DNA from: Tubulanus polymorphus
Taxonomy: Eukaryota > Nemertea > Palaeonemertea > Tubulaniformes > Tubulanidae
Assembly (NCBI RefSeq): GCF_964204645.1
Contig: NC_134026.1
Coordinates: forward strand, 31,605,150 to 31,669,149
Length of the DNA stretch: 64,000 nucleotides
Direction: 5' to 3'
Shown here: positions 22,801 through 25,800 of the stretch, piece after piece
How positions within the stretch are numbered: position 1 is the stretch's first letter
Layout: each line of letters starts with the position of its first letter
Made by a program: the position numbers and the translations under genes
The notes under the pieces: model-generated
The model's database searches: none
Seen by the model: only the letters and a program-made list of their open reading frames with translations
What the model was told of the DNA's origin: nothing

Positions 22801-25800
22801 GTCTCTAGTTTTGAGTCCCTAATTCAATTTACTAAGTGTAAGTCATCATTTTCATTACCTGGAAGTACTGATGTACAATGTATTTACCTGGAAGTATGTA
22901 CACTGCGACCGATAGAAGAATGGTATGCAATGCATTGTAGTTCCTATTGCGAGGATAAACTCAAATTTATGCACCGAACGTTTCCAGTAACAAGTGAATC
23001 CTAAACACGAGATTTTAAACATCGCTTCCAGATCGAACAGGATCGTAAATACACACTGTAAATAGAGAGAGAGAGAAACACACAGGATGAGACCGGGGTG
23101 AGACCGGGGTGAGACCGCAGTGAGACCGGGGTGGGACCGGGGCGAGACCAGGGTGAGACCGGGTGAGACCGCAGTGAGACCGGAGTGAAACCGCAGTGAG
23201 ACCGGGGTGAGACCAGGGTGAGACCGCAGTGAGACCGGGGTGAGACCGGGGTGAGACCGGGGCGAGACCGGGTGAGACCGCAGTGAGACCGGAGTGAAAC
23301 CGCAGTGAGACCGGGGTGAGACCGCAGTGAGACCGGAGTGAGACCGGGGTGAGACCGCGGTGAGACCGCAGTGAGATCGAGGGACAGAATGAGACCACAG
23401 TGAGAGGATGTTACTACATAGCAATTATCAGGTATATTCATCAAATGACAAGTTTTTGTAATAGATGATAAAATAGAATATCATAATACATTATGTTATG
23501 TTATTGTATATTATGTTGTATTATGTAGTACTCTATTATGTTGTATTATGTTGTTACCTCTGCGTAATGATATCCGTTTTTAACCGAGTGATTGTCATCC
23601 TCGTCGTGGTCGAATCTAACGCTAGCCGCGACTAAAGCGTTCACTAAAACCAGTAATAAAACCAACGTGTGGAATACGGTCGATTTTAATACACGCTGGA
23701 ATATAGGTGGCGCTATACCGCGCGGTTTACTCTCGTCTATCGTTATCAGTTTCCACGAGTTACCTTCCGCGTGTAAAACCTAGATTAATAGATAATCCTA
23801 GATTAGAGGACAGTTGTTTTAAACCGAGCATATAATTTAGAGGAGTAATAATTAAACCTGTGATGTATCTGAGTCAGTGGCGCCGTGTTGTGAACCCCAC
23901 ATCTGTTGAAATTGAACTCGAATCTCGGCAAACGTTTCGATAATAACAGCTATAAATACGTTCTACAACGAACAAAATTAAATCCAGGATTAATCGGACA
24001 TTTAAACCGCGAACAATCCGGGATTAATCGACCTGTTTTACCTTGACTAACCAGGCGAGGAAGAATATGAGCGAAATGAAATAAACGAAAGCTCTCCACG
24101 AAGCCAAACTATCAATCGCTCGATACATCAAAAACACCCAACCTTCCTGAGACGCTGATTGATACACCGTAAAAAAACTGGTCGCTGAAATCAATCAATC
24201 AAACAATCAATCAATCAATCAATCAATCAATTCATCAGTCAAACTGTATCGTTATTGTAACTTTAGAGTGAACTAGAAATTAGTAAAATAGTTTTAACTG
24301 ATTGTGATTGACAGTTTTTACCTAATTCATCGAAGCCGTTGAATCCTCGGTCGTATTTCGATAATTCTAATGACATACATTCCATATTAGGAGGACATTG
24401 ATAGCCTTCATACGAGTTCTGAGAACAGTAAGTATCGGGTATCGCTAGTGATCTCAATGTAACATTACTGAAATACAAGTATCGGGTATCGCTAGTGATC
24501 TCAATGTAACATTACTGAAATACAAGTATCGGGTATCGATAGTGATCTCAATGTAACATTACTGAAATACAAGTATCTGGTATCGATAGTGATCTCAATG
24601 TGACATTACTGAAATACAAGTATCGGGTATCGCTAGTGATCTCAATGTAACATTACTGAAATACAAGTATCGGGTATCGATAGTGATCTCAATGTAACAT
24701 TACTGAAATACAAGTATCTGGTATCGATAGTGATCTCAATGTGACATTACTGAAATACAAGTATCGGGTATCGATAGTGATCTCATTGTAACATTACTGA
24801 AATACAAGTATCGGGTATCGATAGTGATCTCAATGTAACATTACTGAAATACAAGTATCGGGTATTGCTAGTGATCTCAATGTAACATTACTGAAATACA
24901 AGTATCGGGTATCGCTAGTGATCTCAATGTAACATTACTGAAATACAAGTATCGGGTATCGATAGTGATCTCAATGTAACATTACTGAAATACAAGTATC
25001 GGGTATCGATAGTGATCTCAATGTAACATTACTGAAATACAATTCTCACAAATAATCATACGGTATTCAGATATAAAATGTTAAGGTCCCAAAACCAGTA
25101 AAATGTATCTTCAGAGAAAGAAAGCAATGAATGATTGATTACAGTTTCTGTGAAGACAAAATTTAGATAAATCTAAGAACTCTCAGATAAATAAACTAAT
25201 ATCAATGAATAACTTACTCTTTAGCCGTTCCCTTGACTACACAATGATATTTCAATTCACCGAATAATTGAACTCCCATAATTCCATAAAGTGACATGAA
25301 GAACAGGAAGAAAATCGTGACGTTATAAATCTGATAACTTGAACGTCTGGAAAATAAAAAACAAAACTACCATCAGTGAGTGATACTTACAAGAGGAGAG
25401 AGATGGGAGAGGGAGGACTTAATAAAACTCATTTCAGTTTTATAACCAAACATAAAACTCTAAGAACAGTCTAAACTCATTTTAGTTCTATAACCAATCT
25501 AACAACTTAAGACCAGTCTAAACTCATTTTGGTTCTATAAACAATCTAACAACTTAAGACCAGTCTAAACTCATTTTGGTTCTATTACCAATCTAACAAC
25601 TTAAGACCAGTCTAAGCTCATTTTGGTTCTATAGCCAATCTAACAACTTAAGACCAGTCTAAACTCATTTTAGTTCTATTACCAATCTAACAACTTAAGA
25701 CCAGTCTAAGCTCATTTTGGTTCTATAACCAATCTAACAACTTAAGACCAGTCTAAACTCATTTTGGTTCTATAACCAATCTAACAACTTAAGACCAGTC

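Follow-up and report, generated by a model that had tools for sequence, protein, structure and literature searches.

A 13-copy splice-acceptor array at exon 5 of NALCN in the nemertean Tubulanus polymorphus as a probable splice-boundary minisatellite

Introduction

In the palaeonemertean Tubulanus polymorphus, the 3' splice site of NALCN intron 4 is present in thirteen tandem copies at the start of exon 5, which raises the question of how one acceptor is selected from a series of near-identical ones and what becomes of transcripts that use the others. An earlier note on this DNA had proposed that every upstream copy leads to a stop and that the array might set a level of nonsense-mediated decay (NMD) for NALCN. 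Here we follow up these proposals in the window, a stretch of 64,000 nucleotides of contig C2 (31,900,244 bp) that lies 231–295 kb from its end, and in samples from elsewhere in the assembly.

Results

The tandem array, as assembled, occupies 611 bp of the minus strand (24430–25040) and consists of 13 full units of 47 bp. The count given in the earlier note is borne out both by TRF, which reports 24430–25042 with a period of 47, 13.0 copies, 96% matches and 0% indels (score 1149), and by splitting the minus strand into units. We number the units from U1, the most upstream (25040), to U13, the one flush with the exon (24430); the earlier note counted in reverse. The 13 units fall into five sequence types that differ at 5 of the 47 columns, and U1 alone has native intron sequence upstream of it. 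An exact 29-bp core of the unit occurs ten times in the 267.8-Mb assembly, always within this array, and the remaining three units carry variants of it. The acceptor GTATTTCAG/TAATGT is intact in all 13 units; the longer form TAATGTT, previously ascribed to every copy, is found in 11, the other two reading TAATGTC. With so few variable columns the chance that none would hit the AG is ∼0.8, and the retention of AG in every decoy is therefore uninformative.

Spliced alignment of a human NALCN sequence places the intron 4 acceptor at the 24468/24467 junction, that is, at U13. The peptide joined from exons 4 and 5 matches residues 183–266 of human NALCN with an E-value of 4.3e-26 and no gap at the junction, and the product of splicing to U1 matches only up to residue 230 (E 2.8e-14). 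Of the 13 junctions, U13 (24467) is also the only one with an open frame into NALCN. These results uphold the identification of the gene as NALCN and of the exon-flush unit, with the first coding bases of exon 5, as the functional acceptor. The gene contains both the E and the K form of the domain II pore exon (Table 1), matching the known EEEE/EKEE pair. Such a pair is described in flatworms, molluscs, annelids, echinoderms and hemichordates, and amphioxus is reported to have the EEEE form alone (PMC3557258); on this character the host is probably not a lancelet.

Table 1. Positions of the features discussed (window coordinates unless a sample is named; a slash within a nucleotide sequence marks a splice junction)
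Feature	Position	Strand	Details
NALCN gene model	13253..27652	-	30 exons, 29 introns; alignment spans human residues 1-1585
NALCN exon 4	25218..25346	-	donor AAAGA/GTAAGT, intron start 25217
Native intron 4 end ahead of array	25041..25100	-	branch-point-like CCTTAAC 50 nt before U1 junction (motif match)
NALCN array, 13 units of 47 bp	24430..25040	-	per unit, 9 nt from the intron 4 end (GTATTTCAG) + 38 nt from the exon 5 start
U1, most upstream decoy	24994..25040	-	first exon base 25031
U2-U12, interior decoy acceptors	24477..24993	-	first exon bases 24984, 24937, 24890, 24843, 24796, 24749, 24702, 24655, 24608, 24561, 24514
U13, exon-flush unit, working acceptor	24430..24476	-	first exon base 24467; GCG (Ala) variant
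NALCN exon 5	24322..24467	-	146 nt
NALCN domain II pore exon, two forms	21905-21765, 21567-21430	-	LTQEGWVEV / LTQKGWVEV
NALCN exon 19 donor, copied once	17460..17507	-	donor CATCTATCTG/GTGAGTTT at 17491; copy with intact GT lies 24 bp downstream; frame kept, intervening sequence stop-free
SLK/STK10-like donor array	30608..31142	-	real donor 31106 (AAACAG/GTATCG) + five copies, each AG + 34 nt + donor (GTATC)
SLK/STK10-like 42-bp donor-derived array	31932..32098	-	real donor 32085 (GAGAT/GTAAG); copies 32043, 32001, 31959 have AT for GT
A_deamin acceptor copies	L042, first exon bases 1338-1783 (C2:31720001-31723000)		E 1.3e-18

Acceptor arrays recur near the same contig end. Ten hand-placed 3-kb samples from the terminal 1 Mb of C2 yielded two more. 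In SPT6, 28 units of 47 bp (L047:850–2165, in C2:31200001–31203000) repeat the acceptor TCTCTTACAG/GACGTTACAACAGGCTCAGGA; the joined peptide is recognized with an E-value of 3.8e-26 and a stop is met from 27 of 27 decoys. In an A_deamin (ADAR/ADAT-like) gene, five acceptor copies spaced 104–124 bp apart lie upstream of the exon, and all four decoys lead to a stop when the frame is taken from the exon itself. The unit ends share 6 bp of microhomology in SPT6 (TATTTT, intron/exon) and 2 bp in NALCN, which is suggestive, at most, of array birth by microhomology. No convincing acceptor array was seen in 12 contig-end samples taken elsewhere than this terminal 1 Mb, so the clustering rests on one contig end. 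An ambiguous case on C11 (L013, 11.1 Mb), where a 65-bp × 2.3 array touches an acceptor and the copies are without AG, was left uncounted. An automatic detector of splice-boundary arrays returned 33 rows for the window and 20 samples, 1 for eight more contig-end samples and 2 for 50 family loci. Most were judged by eye to be chance; A_deamin was kept, as were SPT6 and the NALCN exon 19 donor, both already known, and the 42-bp SLK/STK10-like array surfaced only via another GT. Because the detector missed both the NALCN exon 5 array and the six-copy SLK/STK10-like donor array, it yields no rate.

Donors are duplicated within the window as well (Table 1), once at NALCN exon 19 and in two arrays, at 30608–31142 and 31932–32098, of a gene that we take to be SLK/STK10-like; the exon neighbouring the first of these arrays encodes a PKK domain (E 4.9e-6). 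The five donor copies of the first array resemble complete 34-nt pseudo-exons, and three in a row (102 nt) would keep the frame. A 32-bp array past a kinase-exon donor near 43777, with donor-like copies that contain scarcely any exon, was ambiguous and not counted. There are also 24-bp repeats in long open frames, apparently coding, at 53358–53503 and 40553–41161, in genes that are presumably NSD-like (SET/PWWP) and SLK-like, respectively. The idea that splice junctions are hotspots of duplication was rejected: counting as a copy in NALCN any match of 17 or more out of 20 bases no further than 1.5 kb away, nearby copies were found at 2 of 58 NALCN junctions, compared with 568 of 1706 intron-interior positions (33%) and 8 of 747 exon-interior positions (1%). 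The copies at junctions have the appearance of intron arrays spilling over, with exons holding them back. A further 47-bp minisatellite family, unlike the NALCN unit in sequence, lies in two NALCN introns (25425–26055 in intron 3, and 18316–18485). The period of 47 common to the exon 5, SPT6 and intron 3 arrays is probably due to chance.

Arrays with a period of at least 10 make up 26.6% of the window. In 22 samples within 0.9 Mb of contig ends their median cover is 21% (1.4–100%), as against 0% (0–2.8%) in six inner samples, one of which lies 1.0 Mb from an end (one-sided Mann–Whitney p = 1.7e-4, with the cut chosen after the values had been seen). Cover was 1.6% at 50 Ion_trans and Myosin_head loci, unsorted by distance to a contig end. 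TTAGGG arrays lie near the ends of C1, C4, C6 and C7, and C2 is absent among the matches listed; the C2 end is presumably subtelomeric. Human subtelomeres are likewise described as VNTR-rich in the cited text (PMC7608644). Two separate observations came from the sampled loci: one 3-kb sample on C7 (L086, C7:21400001–21403000) consists of a 102-bp satellite throughout, and at C4:4125126–4126944 (minus strand) four separate matches to Myosin_head positions ∼112–152 have the appearance of alternative exons belonging to a muscle-type myosin gene.

We next consider how U13 might be chosen. Splice-site strength does not point consistently to one copy. An acceptor matrix built from the 28 other NALCN acceptors favors U1 (7.2) over U13 (–0.6, second lowest of 29), whereas pyrimidine counts give the opposite order (10/16 for U13 and 8/16 for U1), so the working copy is not singled out. 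The matrix penalizes C; five C-rich SLK tracts score –9.8 to –15.6 with it. Branch-point-like motif matches inside the units are weaker than the CCTTAAC before U1, and a rule that takes the first AG after the branch point would choose U1. Exon length points the other way. Internal NALCN exons have a median length of 135 nt, with 27 of 28 at 249 nt or less, and by arithmetic exon 5 would measure 710 nt from U1. Exon definition would favor U13 because only this unit gives both an open frame and a normal exon length (146 nt). It is the rule that we favor for such arrays in general, and by it the exon-flush copy would be picked.

Predicted RNA pairing offers a second possible contribution. For units 1–2 the fold energy is –23.8 kcal/mol (z –3.87 against 200 shuffles), and units 12–13 fold weakly (–17.7 kcal/mol, z –0.86); for intron 4 plus exon 5, z is –4.26 against 20 shuffles, a procedure that breaks up the repeats. 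Under three settings the predicted unpaired fraction of the acceptor is 0.11–0.22 for U2–U12, 0.21–0.29 for U1 and 0.23–0.28 for U13. Only 1% of 200 units with shuffled tails hide the acceptor equally well, and the TCG variant is predicted to hide it better (0.12 unpaired) than the coding GCG variant (0.20). These values would fit an array under selection for self-masking, in which a self-complementary unit buries the interior acceptor of its neighbor and so multiplies without harm. Several points argue against this reading. The test of acceptor hiding was devised post hoc, after inspection of one fold, and concerns one array; a palindromic stretch in any tandem unit would suffice to produce the effect. 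U1 is predicted to be about as open as U13 and is not masked. Of the 28 other NALCN acceptors, which have a mean predicted unpaired fraction of 0.46–0.49, 25 to 27 are less buried than U13, and the acceptors of the SPT6 array are open (0.43–0.70), so hiding is not the general working of such arrays. Selected self-masking is therefore an unlikely account of the array as a whole, although pairing-based hiding may help at NALCN.

From each of the 12 upstream copies, unit variants included, the reading frame reaches a TGA ∼20 codons past the junction, at the same place in every case. The earlier claim that every decoy is a nonsense trap is thus confirmed. By arithmetic the TGA would lie at least ∼130 nt ahead of the exon 5 donor, which makes NMD of decoy-spliced transcripts plausible. 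It could be argued that the array is a regulatory one, in which use of the decoys fixes the dosage of NALCN by way of NMD and copy number acts as the dial; the 12 of 12 traps, the native intron and higher matrix score of U1, and the human ABCA7 VNTR, which is described as giving a one-unit frameshift isoform (PMC5954066), would all fit. However, 47 is not a multiple of three, the units are consequently read in all three frames, and most such units will trap: with equal base use, a random 47-bp unit is stop-free with a probability of (61/64)^47 = 0.10, so ∼90% would do so. The layout is repeated in two unrelated genes close to this contig end, and over NALCN, SPT6 and the A_deamin gene all 43 decoys meet a stop. 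The intact decoy AGs, for the reason given above, add nothing. The stops are a consequence of unit length and give no evidence of design; the proposal that they signal a tuned level of NMD is not supported, and we regard a dosage-setting array as improbable.

An error of assembly, in which the copies were miscounted or the expansion is spurious, might be suspected from a run of 100 N in one contig-end sample (L055). It is nevertheless very unlikely here, given that the units differ in variants, that the array is 611 bp within a 31.9-Mb contig and that like arrays of other sequence are found nearby. That each unit is a cassette in an array of alternative micro-exons, as might be imagined from the SLK/STK10-like array with its AG, 34 nt and donor in five of five copies, is barely conceivable at NALCN, where the first two units hold GT sites scoring –0.27 to 0.57, against at least 2.1 for 28 of 29 real donors; tandem mutually exclusive exons were rejected on the same ground, there being no credible donor per unit.

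Discussion

The interpretation that best accommodates these results is that the array is probably a splice-boundary minisatellite of the type termed 'mirage', in which exon definition selects the exon-flush copy and the decoys are tolerated. A 47-bp piece joining the last nucleotides of intron 4 to the start of exon 5 would have been tandemly duplicated in a minisatellite-rich zone at the contig end, presumably by slippage or unequal exchange, and unit turnover would have enlarged the array to its present size. Productive mRNA would be spliced at the exon-flush copy, and interior copies would perhaps also be hidden through base-pairing with neighboring units. Any leakage to the decoys would run into the stop, be lost to NMD and be tolerated, leaving the decoys neutral.

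Mirages are described in lancelets as minisatellite-like tandem copies of intron/exon boundaries, in the genes Adh3, TnC, the globins BflGb6 and BflGb9, and PGBD5, with splicing and mRNA reported to be regular (PMC3087553, PMC3902484). In the NALCN array, too, the units cross an intron–exon boundary of a coding gene and keep the acceptor throughout, and we read it as a large mirage, a known kind of structure rather than a new mechanism. As at NALCN, the lancelet copies span the boundary in tandem, many with splice signals, and their units homogenize; they are reported at either end of exons. The differences are in scale and setting. Copy numbers of 13 in NALCN and 28 in SPT6 compare with 6 and 3 in two BflGb6 haplotypes. 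The nemertean arrays, unlike the lancelet mirages, lie in a repeat-dense contig end and are known here from DNA alone, and the mirage cases in the cited portions of those two papers are all cephalochordate.

Human genes provide further parallels, as far as the cited excerpts go. The CBS insertion c.844_845ins68 also duplicates an intron–exon boundary (intron 7/exon 8), and splicing strongly favors the distal copy, which removes the upstream one, although there are just two copies and the duplication is 68 bp (PMC2630376). The 31-bp CBS VNTR c.1444_1467+7(16_21) likewise has 16–21 tandem units across an exon–intron boundary, but on the donor side (PMC2630376). The VNTR in ABCA7 intron 18 resembles the NALCN array in carrying a splice site in the unit and in that one retained unit causes a frameshift and a stop; it differs in being on the donor side, with a 25-bp unit and up to ∼427 copies (PMC5954066). 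Among the matches listed from open-licence full text, arrays of at least 13 splice acceptors, or their clustering at chromosome ends, are unreported.

A broader proposal is that at least one contig end in this species amplifies the splice sites of ordinary genes, to as many as 28 copies, all nearly identical, and that some arrays, such as that of NALCN, mask themselves through pairing between units, which would let the boundary multiply without keeping the spliceosome from the exon-flush copy. We put this forward tentatively and consider it rather unlikely. If it were true, the arrays would offer a ready-made series in which exon definition could be set against first-AG scanning. The 13- and 28-copy acceptor arrays allow two normally confounded rules to be told apart, since scanning from the branch point predicts use of the first copy and exon definition use of the last. 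What makes these loci worth following is that the arrays recur close to one contig end, that SPT6 reaches 28 copies and that the NALCN array may mask itself. Mirages are probably extended by them beyond lancelets, and repeat-dense chromosome ends would generate a nonsense load that stays hidden and possibly, as the SLK/STK10-like array may illustrate, new exons.
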